From Nitrosomonas sp. (GTDB lineage: Bacteria; Pseudomonadota; Gammaproteobacteria; Burkholderiales; Nitrosomonadaceae), in assembly GCA_019745325.1 (NCBI GenBank), contig JAIETK010000014.1, positions 1-64,000 of the forward strand: a stretch of 64,000 bases of DNA, in the 5' to 3' direction. A program made the position numbers and the translations under genes. Under the pieces are notes generated by a model. It had not been told where the DNA came from. It ran no database searches and was given only the letters and a program-made list of their open reading frames with translations. Below are positions 11,573 to 26,820 of this stretch, one piece after another (positions within the stretch are counted from its first letter, which is position 1; the number at the start of each line of letters is the position of its first letter).

Positions 11573-11739
11573 GACTTTCTCCTTTATCGCCAAAAATAGA
11601 TGGAACGGCTGGAACAATGCCGGGTTATTATGCGGCAAGTGTTGCCTGTGAGCTATGGTATTTATCACACAACCGCAAAGCAATGACATGTGGCGCCGCC
11701 ACTAGCTAAAAAAAACCGCAGACGCTACACTCATCGCCC

Positions 11740-12531
11740 ATGACGACTCCGTCGCATTCTCCTTCCCCGAATCGTTCCTGGTTCCAGCAAGAATGGCGTG
11801 GCTTATTGCTGGCCATCGGTTTCTTTACGCGCATCCCGGTACCGGCATTGCCGGATTTTCACGAACAGGAGTTGAACACGGCAGCCAAGTATTTTCCGCT
11901 GGCGGGGATTATCGTAGGCGCTTTTGCAGCCATTGTTTACTCGCTTGCCAACGCAGTGTTGCCGCAGGACATTGCGGTACTGCTCAGCATGGTTGCGACG
12001 ATATGGCTTACCGGCGCGTTTCATGAAGACGGCTTGACCGATGCAATCGACGGTCTTGGCGGTGGCTGGGAAAAAGAGCAAGTGCTGCAAATCATGCAGG
12101 ATTCGCGTATCGGCAGCTATGGTGTGGTGGGTATCGTGCTGGTGCTGTCGCTGAAATTTGCCGCGTTGAACCATTTTTCGCCGCTGCTGGTGCCGGTCTT
12201 GTTGATCGCGGGCCATAGTTTGAGCCGTTTGGGCGCAGTGATGGTAATGGCCACGCAGCGTTACGTGAAATATTCGGGTAAATCCAAACCCCTCGCGACC
12301 AGCATGCCGCTTACCCATCTTGCCGTGGCCGCTCTATTTGGATTATTACCGCTGCTGTGGCTGCCGTCCTCCTGCTATTGGGGAATTGTGCCCGTGGCGG
12401 TTGTGTGGATGTGGTTTAGCCTTGTTCTGAAAAAGCGCATCGGTGGTTACACCGGCGATTGTTTAGGCGCCATGCAACAGCTTACCGAAGTCTCTTTTTA
12501 TCTCGGTGTATTGGCATGTGCCGCTACATAA
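11740..12531 (+). CDS. cobS: Adenosylcobinamide-GDP ribazoletransferase (cobalamin synthase)
   Basis: 263-residue membrane enzyme joining adenosylcobinamide-GDP with alpha-ribazole (phosphate), the last step of cobalamin nucleotide-loop assembly. Visible are FFTRIPVP near residue 28, the metal-binding FHEDGLTDAIDG (94-105), DSRIGSYGV and GYTGDCLGAMQQLTE, with five or more hydrophobic segments. No other cob genes adjoin it and no cobalamin riboswitch can be placed in the short upstream gap. bluB, which makes the lower ligand, lies about 17 kb away. Its 3' end overlaps the convergent zapE by 8 bp. Confidence 0.93.
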   Translation: MTTPSHSPSPNRSWFQQEWRGLLLAIGFFTRIPVPALPDFHEQELNTAAKYFPLAGIIVGAFAAIVYSLANAVLPQDIAVLLSMVATIWLTGAFHEDGLTDAIDGLGGGWEKEQVLQIMQDSRIGSYGVVGIVLVLSLKFAALNHFSPLLVPVLLIAGHSLSRLGAVMVMATQRYVKYSGKSKPLATSMPLTHLAVAALFGLLPLLWLPSSCYWGIVPVAVVWMWFSLVLKKRIGGYTGDCLGAMQQLTEVSFYLGVLACAAT

Positions 12532-13726
12532 TGGCTTTGCCGTGACCTCTCGCAAGGTAAGCTTCCGACTGCATTTCCGTTAAGCGTGAAACGGTGCGTT
12601 CAAACTCAAAGCCGATGTCGCCGCCGACGTACAGTTCCGCTAGCGGCACGGCGGCGGAACACAGAAATTTGACGCCGTGCTCATACAGCGCGTCGATTAA
12701 ATGGATAAAGCGCCGGGCCTGGTCGCTGTTATGCTCATTGAATTGCGGGATCGCGACCATGATCACAGTGTGATAGGCGCGGGCGATGGCGAGATAATCG
12801 GCGGTGCCGAGCGGATTGGCGCACAGCCGCTTAAACGAGAACACCGCCACGCCGCGTGCCGACTTGGGCACGAACAAAGTTCGTCCTTGCACGTTTAATT
12901 CCTCGCTGGGCACCCTGTCGCGGTCTTTAATTTGGCGGTCGGTTAAACGAAAGAAAATTGTTGATAGCTGCGTGCTGGTTTCTTCGTTCACCGGGTGGTA
13001 ATAGGTTTGCGCACCTTGCAACCGGTCATAGCGATAATCGACCGGGCCTTGCAGTGGAATGATTTCGAGTTTTTCCTTGACTTGCTCGATGAATGGCAAA
13101 AAACGCTGGCGGTTCAAACCGTTCTTGTACAGCTCATCCGGCGGCCGGTTCGATGTCGCGACCACGATCACGCCTTGCGCGAACAGTTCCTTGAACAACC
13201 GTGTGAGCACCATGGCATCGGCGATGTCGGTCACTTGCAGTTCGTCGAAGCACAACAAACGCGCTTCCAGGATGATTTTACGGGCGATGAATGGCATCGG
13301 ATCGTCATCGTTGCCGCGCCCGCCCTGTTGCACTTTTTCGCGAGCGGAGAGCGCATGCCAGGTTTTGAGCCGGTCATGCACATCGAGCATGAATTCGTGA
13401 AAATGCACGCGCCGTTTCGCTGTGACCGGCGCTACTGTATAAAACAGATCCATCAGCATCGACTTGCCGCGCCCGACGCCACCGTAGAGATAAATGCCTT
13501 TCGGCGCCGTTTTGCCGCTGTTCAACCAACCGAACAATACCGTCGACAAACGCGACTTGGAGCGCTCGCCGCGCGTGTTGTCAGCGGGCAGATCGATCAA
13601 CTCCAGGTACAAACGCTCAAGCGCGTCGACCGCATGGGCTTGATCGGCGTCCGGTTTCAGTTCGCCGGCCTGGATCAACGATTGGTATTCAGTTTTAGGA
13701 CTTGTTGTGTGTGAAACTTCAGACAT
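12524..13726 (-). CDS. zapE: Cell division ATPase ZapE (AFG1-like)
   Basis: About 400-residue AFG1/ZapE AAA-type ATPase that acts at the Z-ring in other proteobacteria. It has Walker A GGVGRGKSMLMDLF, preceded by KGIYLYG, HFHEFMLDVH, Walker B LLCFDELQVTDIADAM, and VVATSNRPPDELYKNGLNR, all family signatures. I place the start at the ATG at 13726 (MSEVSH); a TTG five codons earlier is also open and neither has a strong ribosome site. It is the last gene of xthA-ampG-zapE on the minus strand, 18 bp after ampG, and converges with cobS. Confidence 0.93.
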   Translation of the reverse strand: MSEVSHTTSPKTEYQSLIQAGELKPDADQAHAVDALERLYLELIDLPADNTRGERSKSRLSTVLFGWLNSGKTAPKGIYLYGGVGRGKSMLMDLFYTVAPVTAKRRVHFHEFMLDVHDRLKTWHALSAREKVQQGGRGNDDDPMPFIARKIILEARLLCFDELQVTDIADAMVLTRLFKELFAQGVIVVATSNRPPDELYKNGLNRQRFLPFIEQVKEKLEIIPLQGPVDYRYDRLQGAQTYYHPVNEETSTQLSTIFFRLTDRQIKDRDRVPSEELNVQGRTLFVPKSARGVAVFSFKRLCANPLGTADYLAIARAYHTVIMVAIPQFNEHNSDQARRFIHLIDALYEHGVKFLCSAAVPLAELYVGGDIGFEFERTVSRLTEMQSEAYLARGHGKAIM

Positions 13727-13744
13727 AGTAAATTGCAGCAATAA

Positions 13745-15115
13745 CTAATCAGTGGTGAAGGTCGCTTGCCCGGCAAGCCAGACCAGAATCAACACCGGCA
13801 AACCCAAAATGGCAGTGGCAATGAAGAAGTTCTCGTAGCCGTAGGCATCGACAAATTGTCCGCTGAAACCGGCGATAAACTTCGGCAGCAACAACATCAC
13901 CGAGCTGAATAACGCGTATTGGGTCGCCGAGTAGGCCGAGTTGGTCAAGCCTGACAAGTAGGCGATGAACGCGCAGGAAGCGATTCCAGCGGATAGATTG
14001 TCGGCGGAAATAGTGAAAATCAAACCGCTGACATCGTGGCCGCGTCCTGCTAGCCAAACAAACAATAAATTGGTCGCGGCGGACAGTACCGCGCCGAGAA
14101 ACAAGGTGCGCATGACGCCGATTTTTGCGGTCAGCACGCCGCCGATGGCCGCCCCGGCGATGGTCATGATCACGCCGTAGACTTTGGAAATGGCGGCGAC
14201 CTCGTCTTTACTGTAACCCATGTCGACGTAAAACGGGTTACTCATGACGCCCATGACGACATCGGAGATACGGTAAATCGCGATCAAGCCGAGAATCAGT
14301 AATGCTTTCCGGCCATGCCGCACGAGAAAATCGCGGAACGGCGCGATCAATGCACCGTACAACCAAACCAGTAACGCTTTAATGCGCTCGGGCAAAGCCC
14401 AATGCGCCAGCGCGCGCTGCGCGATCTGTTCGTTTTCGGAAACGGTACGGCTGTAGGGCACATCCGGTTCGCGGATGATGAGCGTGGTGACAATGCCGAC
14501 CGCCATGCTCGCCGCCATGATCAGATAGGCGAAGCGCCACGGCGCGTGGTCGTACACATCGGCGCTGACATCGACTGCCGCCGCGATCCACAATACGCCG
14601 GCGGAAGCCAGAATCATCGCGACGCGGTAACCGGCTTGATAAGTCGCCGCCATCGCGCCTTGCAGTTCCACCGCGACCGCTTCGATGCGATAAGCGTCCA
14701 ATGCGATGTCCTGGGTGGCCGATGCAAATGCGACGGCCAGCGCAAAAAACACCAGATGCGTCAGATTGATTACCGGATCGGTCATCGCCATCCCCACCAG
14801 TGCGCAGGCGATCACGATTTGCGACAATAGCAGCCACGCTCGCCGCCGCCCCAGCCAGCGTGTCAGCAATGGCAGCGATAACCGGTCGACCAGCGGCGAC
14901 CATAGCCATTTGACGCTGTAAGCCAACCCGATCCAGCTCAAGTGGCCGATGGTGGTGCGGTCGATACCCGCTTCACGCAGCCAGAACGACAATGTCCCCA
15001 TGATCAACAGCAGCGGCAATCCGGCGGAGAATCCCAGCGACAGCATGCCGAGCACGCGCGGGTGGGTATAAACCCGCAGCGCTTGCAACCAGCTGGAAGA
15101 TGCCGAAGCGGTCAT
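13745..15115 (-). CDS. ampG: AmpG-type muropeptide MFS permease
   Basis: 456-residue major-facilitator protein with about 12 membrane segments. The N-terminus LGMLSLGFSAGLPLLL, the loop WLREAGIDRTTIG, LSWIGLAYSVKWLWSPLVDR and ATQDIALDAYRIE match AmpG, the inner-membrane importer of anhydro-muropeptides for peptidoglycan recycling. It overlaps the 3' end of xthA by ATGA and precedes zapE, so it is the middle gene of a three-gene transcript. No ampD, ampR or beta-lactamase gene is nearby, so an AmpC-induction role is not indicated. Confidence 0.88.
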   Translation of the reverse strand: MTASASSSWLQALRVYTHPRVLGMLSLGFSAGLPLLLIMGTLSFWLREAGIDRTTIGHLSWIGLAYSVKWLWSPLVDRLSLPLLTRWLGRRRAWLLLSQIVIACALVGMAMTDPVINLTHLVFFALAVAFASATQDIALDAYRIEAVAVELQGAMAATYQAGYRVAMILASAGVLWIAAAVDVSADVYDHAPWRFAYLIMAASMAVGIVTTLIIREPDVPYSRTVSENEQIAQRALAHWALPERIKALLVWLYGALIAPFRDFLVRHGRKALLILGLIAIYRISDVVMGVMSNPFYVDMGYSKDEVAAISKVYGVIMTIAGAAIGGVLTAKIGVMRTLFLGAVLSAATNLLFVWLAGRGHDVSGLIFTISADNLSAGIASCAFIAYLSGLTNSAYSATQYALFSSVMLLLPKFIAGFSGQFVDAYGYENFFIATAILGLPVLILVWLAGQATFTTD

Positions 15116-15885
15116 AAGGTATGGTCGTAATCGATGATCAGCGGCGCATGATCGGAGAAGCGTTCATCCTTGAAGATCGATACGCGGCGCGCGGTTTGTG
15201 CGATCGCAGGGGTGGCGATCTGATAATCGATGCGCCAGCCGACATTTTTCGCCCAAGCCTGGCCGCGGTTCGACCACCAGGTGTACTGATCGGGTTCGCT
15301 ATTCAAACGGCGGAATACGTCGACGAAACCGATTCGGTCGAACACATCCGACAACCAGGCGCGCTCTTCCGGCAGAAAACCGGAGTTCTTCTGGTTCGAG
15401 CGCCAGTTTTTCAGATCGATCTCCTTGTGCGCGATGTTCCAGTCGCCGCATAAAATAATTTGGCGTCCGCTTGCCATCAGGTTTTGCAACACCGGGAGGA
15501 AATGTTCCATGAAATAGAACTTCGCTGCTTGCCGGTGTTCGCCGCTGGAACCGGACGGCAGATAAAGCGACACGATGCTCAAATCGCCGAAATCCGCTTG
15601 CAGATAGCGTCCTTCGGCATCGATGCCGGCAACGCCGACACCTTCGACGACGCGATCCGGTTGCTTGCGTGTATAAATGCCGACGCCGCTGTAGCCTTTC
15701 TGCTCGGCGCAATGGAAATAGCCGTGATAGTCATCCGGCGACAACATCTCGCCAGAAAGATCGGGCAATTGCGCTTTTAATTCCTGTACGCACACGACAT
15801 CTGCGGTTTGCTTCGCCAACCAAGGGAAAAAGCCTTTTTTCGCCGCCGCGCGGATGCCGTTGAGGTTAAGCGTTATGATCTGCAT
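15112..15885 (-). CDS. xthA: Exodeoxyribonuclease III
   Basis: 257-residue AP endonuclease/3'-5' exonuclease for base-excision repair. Motifs seen: MQIITLNLNGIRAA at the N-terminus, VVCVQELKAQ with the metal-binding Glu, YSGVGIYTR, CGDWNIAH, WWSNRGQAWAKNVGWRIDY and the terminal FSDHAPLIIDYD with the catalytic Asp-His pair. It is the first gene of xthA-ampG-zapE. No good ribosome site precedes the ATG. A second, truncated copy of its first 11 codons lies about 130 bp upstream. Confidence 0.95.
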   Translation of the reverse strand: MQIITLNLNGIRAAAKKGFFPWLAKQTADVVCVQELKAQLPDLSGEMLSPDDYHGYFHCAEQKGYSGVGIYTRKQPDRVVEGVGVAGIDAEGRYLQADFGDLSIVSLYLPSGSSGEHRQAAKFYFMEHFLPVLQNLMASGRQIILCGDWNIAHKEIDLKNWRSNQKNSGFLPEERAWLSDVFDRIGFVDVFRRLNSEPDQYTWWSNRGQAWAKNVGWRIDYQIATPAIAQTARRVSIFKDERFSDHAPLIIDYDHTL

Positions 15886-15898
15886 CGTTTAGTAGCTT

Positions 15899-15985
15899 AG
15901 TAGGGTGGATAAGCAAAGCGCCATCCACCATAACTTTTGTTTCAACCGGATCGGCGGTGGATGGTGTTGCACTTATCCACCCTAC
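15899..15985. repeat. Palindromic small repeat between xthA and pyrE
   Basis: Left arm GTAGGGTGGATAAG...CATCCACC and right arm GGTGGATG...CTTATCCACCCTAC form an inverted repeat with a central spacer of about 20 bp, flanked by TAG/CTA trinucleotides. It encodes nothing and has the form of a REP- or MITE-like element. Similar GTAGGGTGGATAAG repeats are common in proteobacterial genomes (from memory, not searched). Confidence 0.7.
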
Positions 15986-16018
15986 AATGCCGTTTAAGTT
16001 CAGCGTTATAATTTGCAT
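15985..16018 (-). pseudogene. Second, truncated copy of the xthA 5' end
   Basis: On the minus strand the 11 codons from the ATG at 16018 read MQIITLNLNGI, identical in protein to the start of xthA, then run straight into the palindromic repeat. The two DNA copies differ at 6 of 33 bases and every difference is synonymous, so the fragment seems to come from a diverged functional homologue rather than a fresh duplication. The frame stays open through the repeat for about 50 codons but is unlikely to be a gene. Confidence 0.6.
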
Positions 16019-16046
16019 ATTTTTATTATTCAGAGTGATTCCAGTT

Positions 16047-16691
16047 ATGTCCGATTTCCGGCAAGCGTTTATTCAATTCGCCATCGAACGCAACGTGCTG
16101 TGCTTCGGTGAATTCAAAACCAAAGCAGGGCGCCTGTCGCCGTATTTTTTCAACGCCGGTTTGTTCAATGACGGCGACGCCTTGCGCAAACTCGGGCAAT
16201 TTTACGCCAAAGCGATCGTCGATGCCGAGCTTCCGTTCGATACCTTGTTCGGTCCGGCGTATAAAGGCATTCCGCTGGTCAGCGCCATTGCCATCGCACT
16301 GGCGGAAATGGGCCGTAATTATCCGTTCTGCTTCAACCGTAAGGAAGCTAAGGACCACGGCGAAGGCGGTGTGCTGGTTGGCGCGCCGATGCAAGGCCGC
16401 GTGCTGATCGCCGACGACGTAATCTCCGCAGGCACGTCGGTGCGCGAATCGGTTGCGCTGATCAAAGCCGAGAACGCAATGCCCGGCGGTGTCGTGATCG
16501 CACTCGACCGCATGGAGCGCGGCACCGGCGCGCTGTCCGCCGTGCAGGAAGTGCAGCAACTGCACGGCCTGACGGTCACGCCGATCATCGATCTGGACGA
16601 TTTGGTGGCGTATTTGCATCATCATCCGGAATTGTCGCAGCATCTTTACGCGGTGCAACAGTACCGGGACCGGTATGGCGTCAGCTACTAG
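16047..16691 (+). CDS. pyrE: Orotate phosphoribosyltransferase
   Basis: 214 residues from the ATG at 16047, the normal PyrE length; the open frame extends 30 codons further upstream but that part crosses the repeat and xthA fragment. It forms OMP from orotate and PRPP in pyrimidine synthesis. Motifs: FKTKAGRLSPYFFNAG, FGPAYKGIPL, FNRKEAKDHGEGG (flexible loop) and the PRPP-binding VLIADDVISAGTS. It stands alone, and a dispersed repeat starts immediately after its stop codon. Confidence 0.95.
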   Translation: MSDFRQAFIQFAIERNVLCFGEFKTKAGRLSPYFFNAGLFNDGDALRKLGQFYAKAIVDAELPFDTLFGPAYKGIPLVSAIAIALAEMGRNYPFCFNRKEAKDHGEGGVLVGAPMQGRVLIADDVISAGTSVRESVALIKAENAMPGGVVIALDRMERGTGALSAVQEVQQLHGLTVTPIIDLDDLVAYLHHHPELSQHLYAVQQYRDRYGVSY

Positions 16692-16833
16692 GGGAACGCT
16701 GATTAGTTTGGCGAACGAAATGAAACGCGAGGCGCATGGAACGAGCAACTAATACATATCAACAAGATAGGCGAGGGGGCGAGTGCCGCGCGACAAAGTG
16801 ATTCGCTCGCGCGGTCAATGTCAGCGTTTTCTT
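16692..16833. repeat. Dispersed ~145-bp repeat, copy A
   Basis: Begins directly after the pyrE stop with GGGAACGCTGATTAG and ends GTCAGCGTTTTCTTA. It shares most of its length with copy B (16834-16982), including GCGAGGCGCA, ACATATCAA, GATAGGC and ATTCGCTCG, and its ends are related inverted repeats. Non-coding by appearance. Confidence 0.75.
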
Positions 16834-16982
16834 AAGGAAGCGTTGATTAATTCAACGAACGTGATGAAGGGCGAGGCGCACGGAACGCAACAACCGAGAC
16901 ATATCAATCTGATAGGCAAGGGAGTGAGTACCGCGCAACGAAGCAATTCGCTCGTGCAGTCAATTAATCGGCGCTTCCTTAA
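16834..16982. repeat. Dispersed ~145-bp repeat, copy B
   Basis: Bounded by terminal inverted repeats AAGGAAGCGTTGATTAATT and, on the other strand, AAGGAAGCGCCGATTAATT. It lies in tandem with copy A and matches a third copy at 60416-60561 in order and length. It has the structure of a MITE: short, ends inverted, no coding capacity. The parent element is not in the window. Nothing recognisable lies in the remaining 100 bp to bfr. Confidence 0.78.
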
Positions 16983-17082
16983 CAATTTGATCAAACGGAA
17001 TGCATAAGCGGCTTGGAGTCACCGGAAATGACGCAAGCCGCTTACATGGGTATTGCTGGTTACATCGATACTTCACATGCGA

Positions 17083-17550
17083 TCACATTTGCGATTGCAA
17101 ATAATTTTGCAGCCCGACCCTGTTGATCAGTCCCAACTGTTGTTCCAGCCAATGCGCGTGATCTTCCTCGGTTTCCGCGAGCATGCCTTCGAGAATCTCG
17201 CGCGATTGATAATCGCGTTCCTGCTCGCAAATCGCGATGGCGTCGCGTAACGCGTCGATCACCGAGCGTTCCAGCGCCAAGTCGTTTTGCAGCATTTCCG
17301 GCACATCCCGGCCAATCCGCAATGGGCTGCGGTTGCCGATCACCGGCACGCCTTCGAGCAACAAAATCCGCTTGATCAATTGATCGGCATGCTGCTTTTC
17401 ATCGTCCATTTCGTGATTGATACGTTCGTACAGTTTGCTGAATCCCCAATCTTCGTACATTCGCGAATGGGCGAAATATTGGTCCATGGCGGTCAGCTCC
17501 TCTGCCAGTAGTTTGTTCAGCAAGTCGATAATTTTTGGATTGCCTTTCAT
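17083..17550 (-). CDS. bfr: Bacterioferritin-family iron storage protein
   Basis: 155-residue four-helix ferritin. It oxidises and stores iron in 24-mers. Ferroxidase ligands are present: Glu18, Glu51, His54, Glu94 and the late Glu/His pair in ETEEDH. The C-terminal GLQNYLQSQM is typical of bacterioferritin. In an ungapped alignment with E. coli Bfr the haem-ligand Met52 is Lys here, so this subunit may not bind haem by itself. It has one extra residue around 120-128 relative to E. coli. A strong upstream GAGAGGGAT fits a ribosome site. No Bfd gene adjoins. Confidence 0.93.
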   Translation of the reverse strand: MKGNPKIIDLLNKLLAEELTAMDQYFAHSRMYEDWGFSKLYERINHEMDDEKQHADQLIKRILLLEGVPVIGNRSPLRIGRDVPEMLQNDLALERSVIDALRDAIAICEQERDYQSREILEGMLAETEEDHAHWLEQQLGLINRVGLQNYLQSQM

Positions 17551-17738
17551 AATCGTATCCCTCTCATTCTATTGAGTAACTGCTAACACCTGCGGATTGT
17601 TCAAACGGGCAGGCGCCAGCGACGTTTCATGCAAACACCCGGCATTATACGAGTCAAAAATTAAAAAAACAACAATAAATTATTGATTACAAACGATAAT
17701 AATTCTTGATACCGTTTTCATTATTACTTTGATCCGAA

Positions 17739-18962
17739 TTAACGATTAAAACCTCCCAGCACCTCCAGCAAATATTTCAAATCTTTTTCCGTATGCTCGG
17801 CGGAAACTTGCAAACGGATTTCCTGATCGCCTTGCGGCACGACCGGATAGTTCAAACCGGTTGCGAGAATATTATGATCGAGCAGATGCGCAACCAATGC
17901 CGCGGTTTGCGCGGTATCGCGAATGAAGATAGGCACGATCGGATGCTCGCCGTCGAGTGTTTCAAAACCGAGCTGTTGCAGACCGGTTCGCAATTTGCGG
18001 CTGAAATGGCGTAGCTGCTCGAGCAAACGCAAGCCTTCCGGGCTTTCCAATACATCCAATGCCGCTAATGCCGCAGCAGCTTCGGCGGGTGTGATCGGAT
18101 TCGAGTAAATATACAACGGCGCGGTTTCGCGTAAATAGGCGATTGTGGTTGCGCTGGCTACGACGTAACCGCCGTTGACGCCGAATGCCTTGCCGAGTGT
18201 GCCGATCAGCACATCCGCCCGCGTGCCGGTCACTTCTTCGGTGCCGCGCCCGGTGGCGCCGAATGCGCCGATGCCGTGCGAATCGTCGACGATGGTGACG
18301 ATCCCTTCCGGATAATCGCCTTGGTGTTGTTCGCAGCAAGCATCGAGCTCGGCCAGCGGCGCATGATCGCCGCGCATGCTGAAAATCCCGTCGGTGACGA
18401 CGCAAACCCGTTGATAGCGATCGCGGTTGGTGCTCAGAATCGTTTCCAGTTCGCCGATCGTGCTGTGTTTATAAATTGCCTTACCGGCTGAATGCGCCAG
18501 CCGGATCGCGTTGATGATGCAATTATGGTTAAGCGCATCGCTGACCACCAAAGTCTGTTCGGAAATCAATTGCGGCAGCACGCCGACCATCGTGGCGTAG
18601 GCGGCGCTGAACAGCATCGCCGCTTCACGGCCATGAAACGCCGCCAGCCGCCGCTCCAGCTCGATGTGCGGCGCATACGTGCCGCTGATAAAGCGTACCG
18701 CGCCGGGACCGGCGCCAAATTCCTCGGCTGCCCGCGTTTCCGCTTCGATCACCGCCGGATGCCGTGCCAGCCCCAGATAAGAATTCGAATTCATGCGCAG
18801 AAAAGCGCGATCCTCATAACCGTGCAACCGGTAACGTGGCCCGAAGCCATCGGACGGCGGCAGCACACCGGTGACGATTTTTTCGTCGCTCTTGCGCACG
18901 CCTTGCTGTTGCAATTGATTGAGTTTTGCCTGGAACAACGGTTCGATTTTTGCAAGCGTCAT
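17739..18962 (-). CDS. kbl: 2-amino-3-ketobutyrate CoA ligase (glycine C-acetyltransferase)
   Basis: 407-residue alpha-oxoamine synthase family PLP enzyme. It cleaves 2-amino-3-ketobutyrate with CoA to glycine and acetyl-CoA. Motifs: NSYLGLARHP, FGAGPGAVRFISGTY (near 82-96), DDSHGIGAFG (226-235) and the PLP-lysine site GTLGKAFGVNGGY with Lys258. A GGAGGG ribosome site precedes the ATG. It lies 12 bp downstream of the SDR-type threonine dehydrogenase gene, which would supply its substrate; that pairing favours Kbl over BioF or HemA. Confidence 0.9.
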   Translation of the reverse strand: MTLAKIEPLFQAKLNQLQQQGVRKSDEKIVTGVLPPSDGFGPRYRLHGYEDRAFLRMNSNSYLGLARHPAVIEAETRAAEEFGAGPGAVRFISGTYAPHIELERRLAAFHGREAAMLFSAAYATMVGVLPQLISEQTLVVSDALNHNCIINAIRLAHSAGKAIYKHSTIGELETILSTNRDRYQRVCVVTDGIFSMRGDHAPLAELDACCEQHQGDYPEGIVTIVDDSHGIGAFGATGRGTEEVTGTRADVLIGTLGKAFGVNGGYVVASATTIAYLRETAPLYIYSNPITPAEAAAALAALDVLESPEGLRLLEQLRHFSRKLRTGLQQLGFETLDGEHPIVPIFIRDTAQTAALVAHLLDHNILATGLNYPVVPQGDQEIRLQVSAEHTEKDLKYLLEVLGGFNR

Positions 18963-18974
18963 GACACCCTCCGG

Positions 18975-19931
18975 TTATTCGTTGCGTAGTTTCGCCGTGA
19001 TATGCCGCAGCATATCACCCACCATCGCTGATAAATCGTAGCGCGGCTGCCAACCCCATTCAGCACGGGCGGCACTATCGTCCATATGGCGCGGCCAGGA
19101 ATCGGCAATTGCTTGGCGTAGCGGATCGATGGCGTAAGCGATGGTGAAATCCGGTAAATGCTGCTGAATCGCTGCCGCCAATTGCGACGGGGTAAAGCTC
19201 ATCGCGGTGGCATTGAAGCCGTTGCGGTGCATCAACCGGCTGGCATCGGCCTGCATCAACTGCATCGCCGCGGCAATCGCATCCGGCATGTACATCATAT
19301 CGAGCTGCGTATCCGCGCGCAAAAAGCAATCGTAATGCCGTTGCCGCACCGCTGCGTAAAAAATATCGACGGCGTAATCGGTAGTGCCACCGCCCGGCAA
19401 CACCTGGTTTGAAATCAATCCGGGATAACGCACGCCGCGTGCATCGACGCCATAGCGGCGGTAATAGTAGTCGCACAGCAACTCACCCGTGACTTTGGTA
19501 ATGCCATAGATCGTCGACGGGCGTTGCACGGTATCTTGCGGCGTATTGAACGGCGGCGTACCAGGGCCGAATGCGGCAATCGAACTCGGAAAAAACACTT
19601 GGCAGCCATGCTGGCGCGCGCATTCGAGCACGTTCAGCAAACCGTTCATGTTGATATCCCAGGCTTGCAGCGGCTGTTCCTCCGCCACGGCGGAAAGCAG
19701 CGCAGCCAAGTGATAAATCACCGTGATACCGTGTGCTGTCACCACCGCATTAAGCGCCGCCGCATCGCGTACATCGAGGCTGCAATACGGCCCGGTTTGG
19801 GCCAAACCGCCGGGCGGCTCGCGGCGATGCCCTGCAGCGATCACATTATCCGCTCCGTAATGCTCGCGCAGCGCCAGCGTCAACTCGGCGCCAATCTGAC
19901 CGGTCGCGCCGGTCACCAGAATTTTAGCCAT
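18975..19931 (-). CDS. SDR-type L-threonine 3-dehydrogenase
   Basis: 318 residues from the ATG at 19931, which is preceded by a near-perfect AAGGAGGTGA; the GTG two codons upstream lies inside that ribosome site. An extended SDR with ILVTGATGQIG at the N-terminus, YGITKVTGELL with the catalytic Tyr and Lys, and PGLISNQVLPGGGTTDYA, a signature of the epimerase-like threonine dehydrogenases rather than the zinc Tdh. It converts L-threonine to 2-amino-3-ketobutyrate with NAD+, feeding kbl 12 bp downstream. Together they form a threonine-to-glycine operon. Confidence 0.88.
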   Translation of the reverse strand: MAKILVTGATGQIGAELTLALREHYGADNVIAAGHRREPPGGLAQTGPYCSLDVRDAAALNAVVTAHGITVIYHLAALLSAVAEEQPLQAWDINMNGLLNVLECARQHGCQVFFPSSIAAFGPGTPPFNTPQDTVQRPSTIYGITKVTGELLCDYYYRRYGVDARGVRYPGLISNQVLPGGGTTDYAVDIFYAAVRQRHYDCFLRADTQLDMMYMPDAIAAAMQLMQADASRLMHRNGFNATAMSFTPSQLAAAIQQHLPDFTIAYAIDPLRQAIADSWPRHMDDSAARAEWGWQPRYDLSAMVGDMLRHITAKLRNE

Positions 19932-20141
19932 CGTCACCTCCTTAACCTAACATCATACCGGCTTATGCCATGGATCGAGCGGTAGATTGACGGTACGGCG
20001 ATACTGGAAATTCAAACAACGGGCTTGAGTTATTGCGCAATTACGAATGCTTGATCCGTTTTTGGCAGCAACAACCACCGGCCTTAGCCGATGATTGTCG
20101 AATCTGGTTGAATGGAATCGCGCTGCGATTCCGGTGGGAAT

Positions 20142-20843
20142 TTAGCGGCGAGCGTTAACCCGGCTGAGCTTTCTGCGGAATCCGAATAGCGCGATCAAAC
20201 CCGCGCCAAGCAAAAACACCATATTAGGCTCAGGAATCGGTGCTGCTACAAATTCCAGATTGTCGATCGAATAAAAGCCGAAATTGGAGTCGGTATAGTT
20301 AAATGCGACATAGCGGATGCCGTCCATTGCGATGGAAGCCGGTGTCTGATCATAAATACCCGGTAAATTCGTGGTGCTGTAAACCTGACCGATCTGGTTT
20401 CCCGCCGCATCATAAGCCGTTAACGTCACCGATTCGTCATCCGTGCCCAAATTAGTGCCGTTATCGACCCCCACCAGCGATACGCTATTCACGTCAAATG
20501 CAAAGCTGATCAAGATGCCGCCATCCCCATACTCGGTTACTCCGGTATAGGGCATGCTGACCGCAACTTGTGGCGGAGATGCTGCGGAAGCAAAGCCTTC
20601 CGTCCAGGTCGACGCGCCGCCACGAATCGTTGGTAATGTCGCTGGCGCCGGAAAAGCGCCGGAAAGCGGGAAAGGATTGTCGATGGCGTTCAAGGTCACA
20701 CCCAATGCCGCATAGCGGTTGGTGATCTCAATCCTGGAGCCGGATACATCGTCAAAATCGATTAAAACAGGCGCCGCTTGGGTAGCAGACGAAAACGCCA
20801 CGAGCGACAAGCAAAATGTGGTTGTTAAAAGAGATTTTTTCAT
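20142..20843 (-). CDS. PEP-CTERM exported protein
   Basis: 233 residues from the ATG at 20843, chosen for its AAGGAG ribosome site and the signal peptide MKKSLLTTTFCLSLVAFSS that follows; the frame is open 54 codons further upstream without support. The mature part is a beta-rich domain with many aromatic, Gly and Asp residues (SFAFDVNSVSLVGVDNG, ESVTLTAYDAAGN). It ends in a PEP-CTERM anchor: IPEPNMVFLLGAGLIALFGF then RRKLSR. Such proteins are processed by the exosortase/EpsH system and go to the exopolysaccharide matrix. The exosortase is not in this window. Confidence 0.9.
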   Translation of the reverse strand: MKKSLLTTTFCLSLVAFSSATQAAPVLIDFDDVSGSRIEITNRYAALGVTLNAIDNPFPLSGAFPAPATLPTIRGGASTWTEGFASAASPPQVAVSMPYTGVTEYGDGGILISFAFDVNSVSLVGVDNGTNLGTDDESVTLTAYDAAGNQIGQVYSTTNLPGIYDQTPASIAMDGIRYVAFNYTDSNFGFYSIDNLEFVAAPIPEPNMVFLLGAGLIALFGFRRKLSRVNARR

Positions 20844-21087
20844 TTGAGACTCCTTCTGAACTGAAGTAAAGAAAGCTTTCGTAGGCTTCTCGTAACCCGG
20901 CTGATCAGATAAATCATCTGCCCAGCCATTTAAAAGTCCTTTGAAGAATGTAATATCCATGAGGATATTGAAAAGAATCTTAATCGACGCCACTGGCCAG
21001 CCCAATAGAACAACACTCCTAGTTTACTAGGACATTTGTCCTATTTTTACTGACCGGAGCATCAAATCTGCTGGCCACCAAAAAAAC

Positions 21088-21810
21088 TCAGCGGCAATAT
21101 TCGGCCGTCGTCACGTCACGCTTGATTTGATAGGGCGATCCCGGCCGCAGGATATACTCGCTGGCGCCGACGCGACTGTGCGGATGGCCCCAATCGTAGG
21201 TATACCCCAGCCCGGTCCACGGCACACCGGGGCGGGAGCGGAAATCGTTGAAATAAAGATTTTTGTAGAAAGCCGGATAATTAACGATGTTTCGCACCTG
21301 CGGTACTTCATTCTCGGCAAATTTCAATTCACAACGACTGTCGTGAATCTCCGGATCGACACAAGGGCGGAACAGATCCGCCGGATCGACCCATAGCTCG
21401 ATAAATACATCATAGTTCCAATCGGGTTTAAGCCCCAGATACTGCTTCAAGCGTAAATCGAGATCGCCTTGCGGGTTTTGCCGGACGTAATCCCGGCAAA
21501 ATGCCTGCACCTGTGGCACCGCCGTCACCCAAGTTACATACTGTTCTTCCAGCGAAGTCTGAGCTCGTTCTTCGTAATTTTCTTCAAACGACTTCCGGCT
21601 TTTCCACGTCACCACCAACACCTTGCCATCCTGCCATCGCAAGACTTGATTCTCTGAGTTGATAGCAAATAACCTATCGCTGATCTCGCTCGATTCGGCG
21701 ACTGCTGCGTCGTCGACGGCGCGGTTGTAGGCGGTGGTGGGGTCTTGTTGGAGTGTTGCGCAACCGGATAGGAAAGCAACAGCGATGAGCAACTGATAGA
21801 GTTTTAACAT
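21088..21810 (-). CDS. Hypothetical lipoprotein
   Basis: 240 residues from the ATG at 21810. The signal peptide MLKLYQLLIAVAFLSGC ends in the lipobox LSGC. The mature protein has no recognised domain; it is rich in Trp, Tyr and Arg (RWQDGKVLVVTWKSR, PDWNYDVFIELWVDP, WTGLGYTYDWGHP), which suggests a soluble globular periplasmic protein. It shares strand with the SEFIR-NACHT gene 100 bp upstream; whether they are cotranscribed cannot be told. Confidence 0.7.
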   Translation of the reverse strand: MLKLYQLLIAVAFLSGCATLQQDPTTAYNRAVDDAAVAESSEISDRLFAINSENQVLRWQDGKVLVVTWKSRKSFEENYEERAQTSLEEQYVTWVTAVPQVQAFCRDYVRQNPQGDLDLRLKQYLGLKPDWNYDVFIELWVDPADLFRPCVDPEIHDSRCELKFAENEVPQVRNIVNYPAFYKNLYFNDFRSRPGVPWTGLGYTYDWGHPHSRVGASEYILRPGSPYQIKRDVTTAEYCR

Positions 21811-21912
21811 ATGAGATACCTCAACAAACATTTAACATCGTTTACTTGATGTCACTTGCTGCTTCGCCACAAGTGCCGCAAAAAAAAAACCGTTCAGCGT
21901 GACCGCAAACCG

Positions 21913-24792
21913 CTAGCCGATGGGGGACTCGCACAGCACCCGGAAACCGAGATCGAGGCTGCGAGCGTCCGGAAGGTCGTAGTCGCGCGCCGACGAGCGC
22001 GCGAGGTCCGAAAGATTGAGACAGGAACCACCGCGCACCACGCGGGCCTTATCGCCGGATAGCGGGCAATTTTCCGGCGCCGAATATTCGTTCAAACACC
22101 ATTCCCACACATTGCCCACCAGATCCATGACGCCTTCCGGCGATCCGCCCTGCGGATAGATACCCGCTGCGGAGGTTCTGCCGATTGAACCAGCGCAATT
22201 GACAAAATCTTGCCGGAACTCATTTCCCCACGGATATTGCAATCCTTCGGCGCCGCGCGCGGCACGTTCCCATTGCTGTTCGGTCGGCAGTGTCACCATA
22301 AAACCGAGCTGTGCGCTCAACCAGCGGTAGAAGGCGATTGATTCAAACCAACTAACGCTTTCCCGCGGTGCATTGGGTTCGTCCCATGCGGGAGCAATCG
22401 GTGCATCGAAACGATGCGCCAAACCTTGCCACCAAACCTCGTTCTGATAACCACCGGCATCGATGAAAGCCTGGAATTGCGCGTTGGTTACCGGATAGCG
22501 GGCGATATGAAACGTGGAGAGCGGTGGATGCGGATCGTCCTGATAAATGAATGCGCCGGATGGAATTTTGACCCAATCGATATCGGGCAAGCCGTCGGCA
22601 CGCAAACCGATGCCTTTACGCTTGTCCAGACCGAAATAGCCCAATGCACGCCCGATGGCGGCACGCGCCCACGGCTTAGGTTCGCGCGTGACATCGGTCA
22701 TGCGGGGCAACCATTCATCGGCGATCCCAGACAATACATCATGCGGCAAATCGATTTGCCCCAGATGTTGCCAGACTGCACATGCGACTTCCGGGTTGGC
22801 TTGCGCCAGCCACGTAATCAGGCGGGTTTGCGCTTCGCTGTCGTCGCCGCACGATTCGGCGGCGATTTCCGCCACCACTTCCCAGCCGCTGCGCTCCCAC
22901 CAATTGGCCTGCGGCCAGAATGCGCGCGCCGGTTGATTACCGGTGCGGCTGGCGTCGAGCAGCAAACGGCTGGCGAGGTATTCTTGCAACAGTTGGTGGC
23001 TGAAGCGGATCGCATCGTTTTCCACTTGCAGCACGTTGGCGTCGATGGAAAAATCGAGCAGCGCCTGCGTCAATTCCATCGGGCATTGATCGCGTGGCAG
23101 TGATGTTTGCGCGCCATCGTCCGAACTGTTCGCGCGTTGCATTGCGGCGGCAAGCGCCGTCAATGCAGCTTGCCAATCTTGTTGCACCGGGATATTGCCA
23201 TCGAAGCGTTTCTCTCGTGCTTGTTTTTCTCGCCGGTACAAGTTGTTCAAAAATCCCTGGAACAATTGCGCACGGTTGCGCGGCACTTGCGGAAGCGCGG
23301 TAATGATGAACAGCAAATATGGATTCGCCGCTAGCCGGAGCAAATTGCGCGGATTGAAACGGGTTTCACGCCATAGATTATCCTGCTGCAATGAAGTATA
23401 TGCGCTAATTTTTGGATTTTCTCCAGGCACCTTTTCGGCGCTCCAGAAAAAATCCAAGTCCGCTCCGGCTTGCCGCCATACTTCCCAAACCTCCCGGATA
23501 TTCGACCCGCCCGCCAATTGCCAGAAGCGCTCTTCCGCCCAAACCCCCGCGTCGATACCGTCATTTTGCAACATATAGGTGCGTTGCAGAAAAGTCATGA
23601 TTTGCGACGGTTTCAGCGGTTGCAGCAGCAGCGTGTCGAACGGCAAGCGGCAATCGCCGGTGAAATCCTTTTCGCGGCAACTGACAATGACGCTGACAAA
23701 GCGTTCGTCGCGCGCCAGCGTTTCAATTTGTCCGATTTTGGCGGCGCGCTGGCCGGGCGGAATCTCATTAAGACCGTCGAGCATCAACACTGCCCGGCGC
23801 TGATCGCGCAACGCGGTGAAATGGCAGCCAAGCGGCCCCAGTTGTGCGTTGATGAATCCGGCTAACGGCATGTCGTCTTGCGTCCAGAAACCCAACGGCA
23901 ACAACAGCGGAACCGGCGCATCGGCATCTTGCAACGCCTGCTGCGCGTATTCCACGGCAATGCGCTGCAACGAAAACGATTTACCGGCGCCGGGCTCGCC
24001 CAGCACCGCCAAGCGCCGCACCGGCTTGTTTCTCAATGCGCGGTAGGCTTCCAGTGCATCGCTGTAAGGTGTTTCTTGCGCTGTTTCGTGCGTGGTTGGC
24101 TCCAAATTGAAATCCCGCAAGATGACATCGGTATCCATGGCGGTCGCCATCGCCCGTTCCAGCGACATCGAGCGCCGCTCAGTGGCTTCCAGCGCGACAT
24201 AGCGCTGTGCATGCTTGGCGTAATGATTGTGAATTAATTCGTTGAGATAAACTGTGATCTCCGGCGATTGCGCATCGAATGTCAGCGGCTGACCGATCGC
24301 GCGCGGTTTGATTTTTAACGCGCCGATAGCGCCCGGTTCCACGCCGCTTTGATTCAATAGCGCATCATAAAGCGCTTGGTAACTGGCTTCATTATTCAAT
24401 ACATAATAAGTTTGCGGCCGCAGTGGCTCCGGAATATGCAGCTCATCGGTTGGATCGAACAGCACCGGAATGAATTTGCTGGAAACCTGACGCGTGTCAT
24501 AGAGCTCTTGCGTAATCACCGCGCCTTCCCAATCCACGCCCTTGCCTTTGCCGGGTTGTTCATGACCGCGAAAGCGGCGGTAGTAGCTTTCGGTGCACAC
24601 GCACAACACTTGCGCTGCCGCATCCAATGCATTCAGCATCCAGCGCGGCCAGCCCTCCGGTGGTGATCCTCGCCCGACATAGCGGTCAAGAATCGTTTCA
24701 ATGCCATCGGCGCGCAAGCGCTCGGATAAACCGAGCACCCGCTCGCGATGTTCTTCGGAATCGTGGCTGTAACTGATGAATACTTTAGTCAT
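21913..24792 (-). CDS. SEFIR-NACHT-FGE-like NLR-type protein
   Basis: 959-residue multidomain protein. Residues 1-150: SEFIR (TIR-like) domain, KVFISYSHDSEEHRERV, LSERLRADGIETILDRY and VLCVCTESYYRR. Residues 255-500: NACHT STAND NTPase with Walker A GEPGAGKS (265-272) and Walker B VLMLDGLNEIP (335-345), then the RFSHQLLQEYLASRLL motif (596-611) common after NACHT. Residues 600-730: helical linker. Residues 735-955: formylglycine-generating-enzyme/C-type-lectin-like domain with IPSGAFIYQDD, YPVTNAQFQAF, LPTEQQWERAARG, DLVGNVWEWCL, VVRGGS and LGFRVL. This effector-switch-sensor order is that of bacterial NLR-like immune proteins. The FGE catalytic cysteines are not in place, so the domain is probably a sensor. 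The ATG at 24792 opens directly on the SEFIR domain. Antiphage function is inference. Confidence 0.9.
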   Translation of the reverse strand: MTKVFISYSHDSEEHRERVLGLSERLRADGIETILDRYVGRGSPPEGWPRWMLNALDAAAQVLCVCTESYYRRFRGHEQPGKGKGVDWEGAVITQELYDTRQVSSKFIPVLFDPTDELHIPEPLRPQTYYVLNNEASYQALYDALLNQSGVEPGAIGALKIKPRAIGQPLTFDAQSPEITVYLNELIHNHYAKHAQRYVALEATERRSMSLERAMATAMDTDVILRDFNLEPTTHETAQETPYSDALEAYRALRNKPVRRLAVLGEPGAGKSFSLQRIAVEYAQQALQDADAPVPLLLPLGFWTQDDMPLAGFINAQLGPLGCHFTALRDQRRAVLMLDGLNEIPPGQRAAKIGQIETLARDERFVSVIVSCREKDFTGDCRLPFDTLLLQPLKPSQIMTFLQRTYMLQNDGIDAGVWAEERFWQLAGGSNIREVWEVWRQAGADLDFFWSAEKVPGENPKISAYTSLQQDNLWRETRFNPRNLLRLAANPYLLFIITALPQVPRNRAQLFQGFLNNLYRREKQAREKRFDGNIPVQQDWQAALTALAAAMQRANSSDDGAQTSLPRDQCPMELTQALLDFSIDANVLQVENDAIRFSHQLLQEYLASRLLLDASRTGNQPARAFWPQANWWERSGWEVVAEIAAESCGDDSEAQTRLITWLAQANPEVACAVWQHLGQIDLPHDVLSGIADEWLPRMTDVTREPKPWARAAIGRALGYFGLDKRKGIGLRADGLPDIDWVKIPSGAFIYQDDPHPPLSTFHIARYPVTNAQFQAFIDAGGYQNEVWWQGLAHRFDAPIAPAWDEPNAPRESVSWFESIAFYRWLSAQLGFMVTLPTEQQWERAARGAEGLQYPWGNEFRQDFVNCAGSIGRTSAAGIYPQGGSPEGVMDLVGNVWEWCLNEYSAPENCPLSGDKARVVRGGSCLNLSDLARSSARDYDLPDARSLDLGFRVLCESPIG

Positions 24793-24928
24793 GGTGGGCG
24801 AATGTACTGAAAGCCCAATGGGTTGTCAAAGGTATGGATGAAGCGGCGCTTTCAAACATTGTCATTGATTTTATCGTTTGAATTTGCCATCATTGATTGC
24901 ACTTTTTAATTTTCAGCAAGAGAAAAAC

Positions 24929-25177
24929 ATGGCAAGCATCACGATCCGGGATCTGCCCGATAAAACCAAAGAACTGCTGCGCATGCGTGCGGCAAAAGCC
25001 GGTGTTTCACTGGAAGCTTATGTGCGCCATATCTTGCAGAAAGCATCGCTTGCCAACGAATTCACATCCACCGATATTGCGCAAATTGCAGAAAAATACT
25101 TCGGCTCGGAGCACGGGGTTACGCTTGATTTGCCTAAGCGCGGCACGAAACGTCAGGCTGTTGATTTCGACGCATGA
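24929..25177 (+). CDS. fitA: FitA/VapB-type antitoxin
   Basis: 82-residue ribbon-helix-helix antitoxin: MASITIRDLPDKTKELLR is the DNA-binding strand-helix, followed by RAAKAGVSLEAYVRHIL and a C-terminal toxin-binding tail. It should neutralise the PIN toxin and repress its own promoter. ATG at 24929 has AAGAG upstream. Its 3' end overlaps fitB by ATGA. A decayed second copy lies at 26623-26820. Confidence 0.88.
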   Translation: MASITIRDLPDKTKELLRMRAAKAGVSLEAYVRHILQKASLANEFTSTDIAQIAEKYFGSEHGVTLDLPKRGTKRQAVDFDA

Positions 25178-25623
25178 TCGTTCTGGATACCAACGTTATT
25201 TCCGAATTGATGCGCGAACAACCCGATGCGAATGTTAAGCAATGGATAAAAGCGCAAAAAACGATTCATCTTGCCATCACTGCAATCACCGTCGCAGAGA
25301 TTCAGCGAGGGCTGACACGTTTGCCGGAGGGTAAGCGGCGCACTCAATTAACTGTCAATTTTTCGGATTTCATTGCCGAAGCTTTCAGCGGTAGAATTTT
25401 TCCCTTCGACGAAGAAGCGGCCTATCGCTACGGCGAAATTGCCGCTACGTGCGAATCCGTTGGCATCAATACCGATGCCGTAGATCTGATGATTGCCGCC
25501 ATCGCCAGCAGCAGGCGAGCAGCTATTGCCACACGAAATGTCAAGGACTTCATCGGCTGTGGCGTTGCAATCATTAATCCTTGGGTAAATTCTTCCCCGC
25601 AGATTCCGCCTGACAAGCAATAG
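25174..25623 (+). CDS. fitB: FitB/VapC-type PIN-domain toxin
   Basis: 149-residue PIN ribonuclease toxin. Acidic active-site residues are in MIVLDTNVISELM (Asp5), TAITVAEIQRG (Glu) and NTDAVDLMIAAIA (Asp pair); the typical FitB stretch RLPEGKRR is present. It would cleave RNA when FitA is lost. The last 14 or so residues (after GVAIINP) are not family sequence: they are the antisense of a ParE-type toxin gene into which the pair seems to have landed, so the C-terminus is chimeric. Translationally coupled to fitA. Confidence 0.88.
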   Translation: MIVLDTNVISELMREQPDANVKQWIKAQKTIHLAITAITVAEIQRGLTRLPEGKRRTQLTVNFSDFIAEAFSGRIFPFDEEAAYRYGEIAATCESVGINTDAVDLMIAAIASSRRAAIATRNVKDFIGCGVAIINPWVNSSPQIPPDKQ

Positions 25624-25676
25624 TCGATCGTTTGATTAAATTCGCTCTCCGCATCGGGGTGAAACCAGTAACTCAT
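25577..25676 (-). pseudogene. Remnant of a RelE/ParE-type toxin gene
   Basis: Reads MSYWFHPDAESEFNQTIDY then GEEFTQ, the start of a ParE/RelE-like toxin, before the frame passes into the antisense of fitB. Only about 33 of the usual 95 or so codons remain. Its ATG overlaps the stop of the antitoxin gene at 25673 (ATGA), the usual operon order. The fitAB module appears to have replaced or interrupted the rest, leaving an antitoxin without a working partner. Confidence 0.7.
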
Positions 25677-25900
25677 TTTTCAAATCGTTGCCAGATCCTA
25701 TCAAAGACTTCGTTGCCTGGAATTGCTGCACCGGCAGCTCCGGAGCGCATTTCCATCAAGCGTTGGTGAGCAGTTGTGATCCATTTTTTGTCAATCTCGG
25801 ATTCGGGCTGATTGAGGCTACGCAGTAGTGAATCGACAATCATCACGCGCTCTTCCACCGGAAGCGCTGTAATCTCATCAATCATTTTTTTCGTATTCAT
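25673..25900 (-). CDS. Addiction-module antitoxin (TIGR02574-like), orphaned
   Basis: 75-residue protein: MIDEITALPVEERVMIVDSLLRSLN and EIDKKWITTAHQRLMEMRSG are typical of the putative addiction module component family (Pfam PF09720), partner of ParE-type toxins. The downstream toxin is reduced to a 5' fragment, so it now stands alone, although the gene itself looks intact. It may still be expressed and bind related toxins elsewhere. Confidence 0.8.
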   Translation of the reverse strand: MNTKKMIDEITALPVEERVMIVDSLLRSLNQPESEIDKKWITTAHQRLMEMRSGAAGAAIPGNEVFDRIWQRFEK

Positions 25901-26028: not shown

Positions 26029-26172
26029 TCGAGACCTTTGCACGGTGTCATGAGCGGTACGAGAATAAGGCAAAAATTTGCGAAAAAGCGGAATTTACAC
26101 GGGGTAAATGAGCATTTTCGCGAATTTTTAACGCAATTATCGTGCCGCGTAGTAACCGTGCAAAGGTCTCGA
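26029..26172. mobile_element. 144-bp MITE-like near-perfect palindrome
   Basis: Exact 18-bp terminal inverted repeats TCGAGACCTTTGCACGGT (26029-26046 and complement 26155-26172). The symmetry continues inward with mismatches across almost the whole element (e.g. GCGAAAA/TTTTCGC and ATTTAC/GTAAAT). GAGACCTTTGCA resembles ends of IS5-type insertion sequences (from memory). It has no coding capacity, so it would need a transposase elsewhere. The rest of the 25901-26265 gap holds nothing recognisable. Confidence 0.75.
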
Positions 26173-26265: not shown

Positions 26266-26622
26266 TTACCCACGCACTCTAGCCGCGCGGAATCCAAGCA
26301 AGCCTAAACCCGCCGGCAGCATCGCCCATACGCTGGGTTCCGGAACTGCGTTGATGTAGAAATCGTCGATGAAATAGCGGTCACGCCCGCCGGTGGAAGG
26401 GAAAATATTGTTGAGGCCGACAAAGCCGTCGACCGGGTCGGTCGATACGATGCCGACAAATCCGGAGATTGTGCTGCCGACCGGGACGATCGTTGAGCCG
26501 TTCAATTCGATAGGCCCCATGCCGCCACTAACGTAGTTAAAGCCGAACGCATACACCGCGCTGGTGAAATATCCGCCGACCGCTGCCAGATAATCGGCTT
26601 GCGAGGTATACAGCATTACTGC
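26266..26622 (-). pseudogene. 5'-truncated PEP-CTERM protein gene
   Basis: The frame ends in a normal PEP-CTERM anchor, AVPEPSVWAMLPAGLGLLGF followed by RAARVRG, after a beta-rich stretch (LYTSQADYLAAVGG, DPVDGFVGLNNIF, RYFIDDFYINA). Upstream of about 26622 the frame runs into antisense fitA, so signal peptide and N-terminus are gone. The first in-frame ATG (MLYTSQ) gives no signal sequence. A rearrangement has joined this gene tail-first to the decayed fitA copy. Confidence 0.75.
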
Positions 26623-26820
26623 GGCATGCGTGCGGCAAAGACCGGTGTTTCGCTGGAGGCTTATGTGCGCCATATCTTGCAGAAAGCATCGCTTGCCAAC
26701 GAATTCACGTCCGCCGATATTGCGCAAATCGCGGAAAAGTATTTCGGCCAGGAGCACGAAGTTGCGCTTGATTTGCCGGAGCTCAGCACGAAACGTCAAG
26801 CCGTTGATTTCGACGCATGA
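26623..26820 (+). pseudogene. Decayed fitA copy, 5'-truncated
   Basis: From GCATGCGTGCGGCAAA onward this matches fitA at 24929-25177 with scattered substitutions (VSLEAYVRHILQKASLANEF, then KRQAVDFDA) but lacks the first 18 or so codons with the DNA-binding strand. A one-base difference near the junction and the fused PEP-CTERM sequence mark the breakpoint. Not expected to repress. Confidence 0.78.

Follow-up and report, generated by a model that had tools for sequence, protein, structure and literature searches.

A Nitrosomonas SEFIR-NACHT-FGE protein with a putative retroelement-written sensor tip in a genome without a detectable retroelement

The stretch of Nitrosomonas DNA analyzed here (the window, 64,000 nucleotides of contig JAIETK010000014.1) contains a minus-strand gene whose 959-residue product joins a SEFIR domain, a NACHT NTPase, and a C-terminal FGE/C-type-lectin-fold region. 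The locus raises the question of what such a protein does and how its recognition surface arose. Our answer, to which we assign a probability of about 0.65, is that it is an NLR-like suicide sensor, probably NAD depleting, whose recognition surface was diversified by a diversity-generating retroelement (DGR) and then frozen when the DGR was lost.

The initial annotation had named the gene a SEFIR-NACHT-FGE protein, and its domain assignments hold. The open reading frame (ORF) starts with ATG and has zero internal stops. Pfam places effector, STAND NTPase, and C-terminal FGS within a single polypeptide, with matches to SEFIR (E = 9.9e-15), TIR_2 (4.7e-11; 43.7 bits), NACHT (PF05729; 5.2e-9, 36.6 bits versus a cutoff of 26.7), and FGE-sulfatase (1.6e-38), all four exceeding their own gathering cutoffs. 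PADLOC adds a bSEFIR match over residues 2 to 192 (E = 3.6e-46), and the Walker A (GEPGAGKS, residues 265 to 272) and Walker B (LMLDGLNEIP, from residue 336) motifs are both intact. The SEFIR match is the single one in the whole genome; FGE is matched four times there and NACHT three times, with two of the NACHT matches above cutoff. In the predicted structure (predicted local distance difference test [pLDDT] 76.7, predicted template modeling score [pTM] 0.65), the core (residues 170 to 682) aligns with chains of animal NLRC4, NOD2, and NLRP3 and the C terminus with ToxD, EgtB, FGE, and the DGR variable protein TvpA; the order effector, STAND NTPase, sensor does repeat the logic of NLRs, as had been suggested. 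When the variable region is set aside, the ratio of nonsynonymous to synonymous substitution rates relative to the closest orthologue, in genome G002, is 0.15 to 0.19 in the four large regions that remain, and the protein is therefore under constraint.

The evidence for DGR writing lies in 25 codons at the sensor tip. Relative to G002, codon positions 1 and 2 differ in 17 of these 25 codons, versus 236 of 933 elsewhere; for the third base, the corresponding counts are 1 of 25 and 359 of 933. All 17 codons changed at positions 1 and 2 keep their third base, compared with 113 of 236 elsewhere (P = 9.6e-6 in a Fisher test, which treats codons as independent). The same pattern is seen in the two other species pairs, which involve the relative G020. 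Synonymous difference in the variable region is 0.000 in all three pairs; in the NACHT and FGE regions, it is 0.49 to 0.54 between our gene and G002 and 0.65 to 0.76 in the pairs with G020. Such a codon pattern is what would be expected from copying of a template with AAY codons combined with random replacement of A.

Comparison with actual templates points the same way. A variable-region pattern matched in 22 of 85 genomes of the genus, and the reversed control pattern matched in 0 of 85. Four template repeats, recognizable as runs of AAC/AAT codons and all belonging to other species, were found, three of them beside a reverse transcriptase (RT) gene (G033, G039, and G083) and one near a contig end (G010). 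Our gene departs from these four at 16/25, 21/30, 17/26, and 21/30 of the template adenines, versus 14/95, 14/90, 13/94, and 15/90 of the other bases; the comparison with G039 (17/26 versus 13/94) gives P = 6e-7. Adenines are also enriched among the changes in G020 (P = 1.8e-6 to 4e-9) and, more weakly, in G002 (P = 2.7e-3 to 4.9e-5). Relatives with an intact DGR score 14 of 14 at chosen variable-region offsets, as do our gene, G002, and G020, for which the figure is partly circular because the offsets were chosen from those three. Because the changes fall on template adenines and third bases are kept, we identify the last 25 sensor codons, as judged by sequence comparison, as a DGR variable region, a feature that the initial annotation had missed. 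One residue stands apart: position 924 is Cys here and Trp in all 38 other motif matches from 40 genus loci (four of these matches are template-repeat ORFs), a change that would fit an end of retrohoming. A scan for pairs of template repeat and variable region came up empty at 5 of 9 genus loci (L041, L043, L050, L056, and L071) and at 2 of 5 further loci (L159 and L161). At the latter, from Thiothrix, no RT with a YxDD-type motif lies within the 14.85 kb covered, and the tip codons are partly not NNY.

What, then, became of the retroelement? The genome, a draft in 33 contigs that is 99.98% complete, has no RVT_1 match at an E value of 1e-3, no match to the G039 DGR RT used as query, and no second copy of the variable-region or template pattern at up to 3 mismatches. 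The G002 and G020 genomes likewise lack an RVT_1 match, and each carries a convergent C-terminal RT fragment, at 71 nt (G002) or 51 nt (G020) from the 3' end of the gene (scores of 165 and 113; 500 shuffles reach at most 50 and 46). G033 has a complete RT gene whose end lies 42 nt from a second, convergent FGE target. At a Zoogloea locus the order is the same: template, RT (C-terminal half), and TIR-NACHT-FGE gene, the last being convergent. Because of these RT stumps downstream in G002 and G020 and the like layouts in G033 and Zoogloea, it appears that our gene once served a DGR as its second, convergent target. Because neither RT nor template repeat was found in the genome, the tip is, within the limits of the draft, predicted to be frozen at present.

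This situation recurs in the genus. Of the 22 pattern-bearing genomes, 8 encode an RT that carries the xTSQ motif of the DGR type and 14 show no complete one; of these 14, 4 have short C-terminal RT fragments, 7 have no match, and 3 have only 26 to 29% identical matches to the G039 RT. These counts, from draft genomes at one per species, come from an xTSQ-motif regular expression plus a protein query in 20 genomes; in G010, a contig end lies some 0.7 kb beyond the template repeat and may have cut off the RT. A tempting extension, which we hold to be doubtful, is that the DGR serves in Nitrosomonas as a disposable maturation device: many tips would be made on a NACHT-FGE receptor, selection would retain one that recognizes a prevalent invader, and deletion of the RT would then leave a fixed, heritable immune receptor, with the loss being adaptive and repeated.

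Matches to the protein at an E value of 1e-10 occur in 68 of 149 relatives, mostly via the FGE domain, and the G002 orthologue (959 aa, 75 to 76% identical) is the only other full-length one among the matches listed. G020 has a TIR domain in front of the same NACHT-FGE half (64% and 66% identical), and in G006 a TIR-NACHT-FGE protein is split across two frames. An FGE-peptide search of 84,980 species genomes, from which 80 loci were kept, yielded ORFs matching SEFIR, NACHT, and FGE only in the G002 record and in Thiothrix eikelboomii (L161, 965 aa). SEFIR was found in 15 of 369 genomes of the class; of the 14 SEFIR regions fetched, one (L258, from G344) encodes SEFIR-nSTAND1-FGE and two encode SEFIR with NB-ARC or AAA plus TPR matches. 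The SEFIR-STAND-FGE genes found are thus four: this gene and those of G002, Thiothrix, and G344. Within the genus, TIR, DUF4062, and bDLD3 take the place of SEFIR on STAND-FGE proteins, and SEFIR and TIR effectors swap on one NACHT-FGE chassis. SEFIR seems to be a common effector on several NLR-like chassis.

Several of these loci deserve mention in their own right. At L056, L057, L058, L256, and L257, SEFIR is part of proteins that also match TPR and either AAA or NB-ARC. A DGR cassette at L042 (G022:C1, 2547 to 11216) combines a DGR-type RT with a 479-aa SEFIR protein (SEFIR 73% identical to ours), a 363-aa FGE ORF, and a 1,046-aa FGE protein in which Pfam finds no NTPase; its two variable copies differ from the template, at 18/18 and 15/15 adenines, respectively. 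L041 and L043 hold cassettes resembling it. At L055 (6484 to 8955), the N terminus of a bDLD3-nSTAND1-FGE protein passes the Pfam cutoff for the eukaryotic Death domain (27.6 bits versus 22.6). L068 (G034:C4, 1100 to 15561) has three STAND-FGE-sized genes (910, 931, and 932 aa) inside 15 kb, in a genome without an RVT_1 match.

The gene sits at an accessory, rearranging site beside a FitA/PIN-type pair (Table 1), because a same-species strain, G149, lacks its DNA and carries an inversion and transposase-type ORFs at the breakpoint. G149 is collinear with positions 11099 to 21810, has no match for 21811 to 25707 in a DNA comparison (no protein search was made), and has the segment from 25708 to approximately 52468 inverted. 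At the breakpoint (L120, 3159 to 9104), it encodes two transposase-type ORFs, an 866-aa DEAD helicase, and a HepT/MntA-type pair, and this place, which corresponds to that of the SEFIR gene, is possibly an accessory hotspot. The FitA/PIN pair, the Unstab_antitox ORF, and the dispersed repeats largely bear out the earlier description of an accessory stretch with toxin-antitoxin modules and a miniature inverted-repeat transposable element (MITE). The two repeats recur at roughly at least 28 and at least 14 places, respectively, in the same-species genome, and the second also matches its own opposite strand, as an inverted-repeat MITE would. PEP-CTERM proteins flank the gene on both sides (20142 to 21005 and 26266 to 26799). 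A ClpA-like AAA protein (53463 to 55718) was considered as a defense gene and set aside, as it gave PADLOC cross-hits only. A promoter-like site (24829 to 24801, minus strand, 10/12) stops 8 nt short of the ATG, so that the transcript would be nearly leaderless; the scan for promoters and terminators found 3 promoter-like sites where 1.9 are expected and was given no weight. An Rfam scan of the window returned 0 matches.

Table 1. Features of the SEFIR-NACHT-FGE gene and its surroundings (window positions)
Feature	Coordinates	Strand	Basis
SEFIR-NACHT-FGE gene, 959 aa	21913..24792	-	ORF, Pfam
SEFIR domain, residues 3-135, predicted effector	24388..24786	-	Pfam; Glu89 alignment
NACHT NTPase, residues 259-377	23662..24018	-	Pfam, Walker motifs
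Residues 378-735, mainly helical in model	22588..23661	-	Predicted structure
FGE/C-type-lectin-fold sensor region, residues 736-959 (Pfam match 759-952)	21916..22587	-	Pfam, structure alignment
DGR-type variable region, 25 codons, residues 924-948	21949..22023	-	Codon and template comparison
3' flank, stop codon to edge of synteny with same-species strain	21811..21912	-	
FitA-like RHH antitoxin ORF, divergent neighbor	24878..25177	+	
PIN-domain toxin ORF, overlapped by FitA-like ORF	25174..25623	+	Pfam
Unstab_antitox ORF	25673..25900	-	Pfam
Dispersed ~150-bp repeats	16833..16982 and 26030..26171		Recur across same-species genome

In the mechanism that we favor, the C-terminal domain would bind an invader-derived ligand via its 25-codon surface, and binding would release the NACHT switch, which would oligomerize with ATP; this switch-and-oligomerize step follows from the NLR family. 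The clustered N-terminal SEFIR domains, relatives of TIR, would be the effector and would most likely cleave NAD+, stopping or killing the cell. We infer NADase activity because passages of two later papers describe bacterial SEFIR as NAD+ depleting, because TIR takes its place on the same NACHT-FGE chassis, and because Glu89 is identical in 14 of 14 aligned SEFIR domains.

Some results weigh against our overall reading. Each of the four templates shows 13 to 15 non-A mismatches to the gene, and therefore none of them is the direct template. The draft assembly leaves room for a missed plasmid or contig with a DGR. The gene's own 3' flank is without an RT stump (score of 34 versus a shuffled 95% level of 37); its first 24 nt match the relatives' flanks at 15 to 18 of 24 positions, which is suggestive by eye but not significant, as the local score is reached by at least 20 of 1,000 shuffles. 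The SEFIR active-site stretch is poorly modeled (residues 78 to 90, pLDDT below 50), and the SEFIR-only model (pLDDT 52) was not used for the fold search. That no SEFIR or TIR chain stands among the 50 VIA-align and Foldseek matches listed reflects the length of the list and carries no weight. The defense island that the initial annotation led us to look for did not materialize: PADLOC on 20 ORFs of the window found no second convincing system and no other strong defense-specific match.

The alternative that survives best, although we think it unlikely, concerns the effector: SEFIR could itself lack NADase activity and, as a homotypic adaptor, bring in a separate effector. Animal SEFIR domains are adaptors, and SEFIR domains 73 to 75% identical to ours occur on separate proteins of 475 to 479 aa near FGE genes (L041 and L042), one of them with a DGR RT. 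The description of bacterial SEFIR as NAD+ depleting, the replacement by TIR, and the invariant Glu all favor an enzyme. We find it improbable that the protein is a STAND-type signal regulator with no immune role, as the PADLOC result might suggest, since effector-type N termini (TIR, SEFIR, DUF4062, and bDLD3) stand on the same C-terminal half in the genus, and DGR diversification together with absence of the DNA from the same-species strain fits a conflict role better.

Two further alternatives concern the tip. It might still be rewritten in trans, by a DGR that resides on a plasmid, in a phage, or on an unassembled contig. Species that differ at 0.49 to 0.76 of synonymous sites in the NACHT and FGE regions share the same third bases throughout the variable region, so template copying is recent relative to species divergence, and the genome is a draft. 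We nonetheless regard rewriting in trans as decidedly improbable: the assembly is without an RVT_1 match or template repeat, a phage-borne template received no support (the exact degenerate template pattern had 0 matches in viral contigs; plasmid and phage records were not searched), and Cys924 is an off-template change that retrohoming across codon 924 would reset. It is very improbable that the tip owes its variation to ordinary positive selection or to recombination between FGE paralogues, without any retroelement taking part. Such paralogues are common in the genus and offer material for gene conversion, but amino acid selection predicts neither kept third bases nor changes on template adenines, and conversion from a DGR-diversified paralogue would remain a DGR product. 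Finally, that the FGE domain is a formylglycine-generating or sulfoxide-synthase-like enzyme modifying a substrate is scarcely credible despite fold and sequence matches to FGE, EgtB, and ToxD entries, since formylglycine-generating enzyme uses a catalytic cysteine pair that is absent here (the cysteines of 6s07 and 5nxl align to a gap and Ser).

How much of our preferred reading, a DGR-diversified and now frozen suicide sensor, is new? One known relation is bSEFIR (PADLOC PDLC03957), whose likeness is confined to the SEFIR domain: the match spans profile positions 39 to 203 of 412 and implies neither NACHT nor FGE. The bSEFIR system was reportedly described by Millman and colleagues in 2022. 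That work is cited in passages of PMC12774641 and PMC12926258. The claim that a SEFIR effector with an FGE sensor is uncharacterized stands only in part. The class of STAND NTPase-FGS conflict systems is in print (Kaur et al. 2021, eLife, PMC8195603) and, like our protein, has an N-terminal effector, a central STAND NTPase (NACHT, nSTAND1, and others), and a C-terminal FGS domain, which is proposed as the invader sensor and is frequently linked to a DGR. SEFIR, although a TIR relative that TIR_2 also matches, is absent from the effectors named in the available passages of that paper (0 occurrences), and no RT was found in our genome. The available passages of Dore et al. 2024 (PNAS, PMC10907252) do not name SEFIR as an effector either; they describe DGR-diversified NACHT/nSTAND1-CLec sensors in Thiohalocapsa PB-PSB1 and relatives, which share with our protein a NACHT plus a C-terminal CLec/FGE domain with a variable region. 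They also list Nitrosomonas among organisms with several related DGRs and report "degenerate" loci in the Thiohalocapsa PB-PSB1 genome, which keeps complete DGR loci, whereas none complete was found here.

The TIR-NACHT-FGE protein of the Zoogloea metagenome-assembled genome (L160, JADJBR010000007.1), the convergent neighbor of a DGR, is 55% identical in NACHT and 54% in FGE, and its variable region departs from the template at 10 adenines and zero other bases; it differs in having TIR for SEFIR, a template, and an RT of which only the C-terminal half is open. Orphan targets are known from passages on Treponema denticola (PMC4891356), where isolates lacking an RT or template repeat carry variable regions whose differences from known templates lie mostly at adenines, and on Anabaena all3226 (PMC7517822), where DGR removal after selection is suggested. 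Unlike the present case, these passages describe no NLR-like sensors (NACHT has 0 occurrences in PMC7517822 and was not searched in PMC4891356). As far as these sources go, then, each of the three elements is already in print on its own: STAND-FGS systems, NACHT sensors diversified by DGRs, and orphan targets of DGRs. In the open-access literature, which includes few subscription papers, SEFIR and diversity-generating retroelement coincided, in the text available, only as a table row in one review; SEFIR domain, NACHT, and bacteria returned papers on animals, judging by the listing, and bSEFIR returned none. The combination of a SEFIR-NACHT sensor, a tip written by a DGR, and a host genome in which no DGR can be detected seems not to have been described in that literature.

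If our reading is right, a single gene joins animal-type NLR switches, a bacterial SEFIR effector, SEFIR being the signaling fold of IL-17 receptors, and receptor diversification by a retroelement. This gene and those of G002 and G020 would form a natural receptor series in which constant parts that are 66 to 76% identical carry independently rewritten tips, so that ligands could be found by tip comparison. Surveys that start from RT genes would miss orphan variable regions of this kind, and bacterial adaptive-type receptors may therefore outnumber current counts. The idea that bacteria fix a useful receptor by getting rid of the mutator would be directly testable here.
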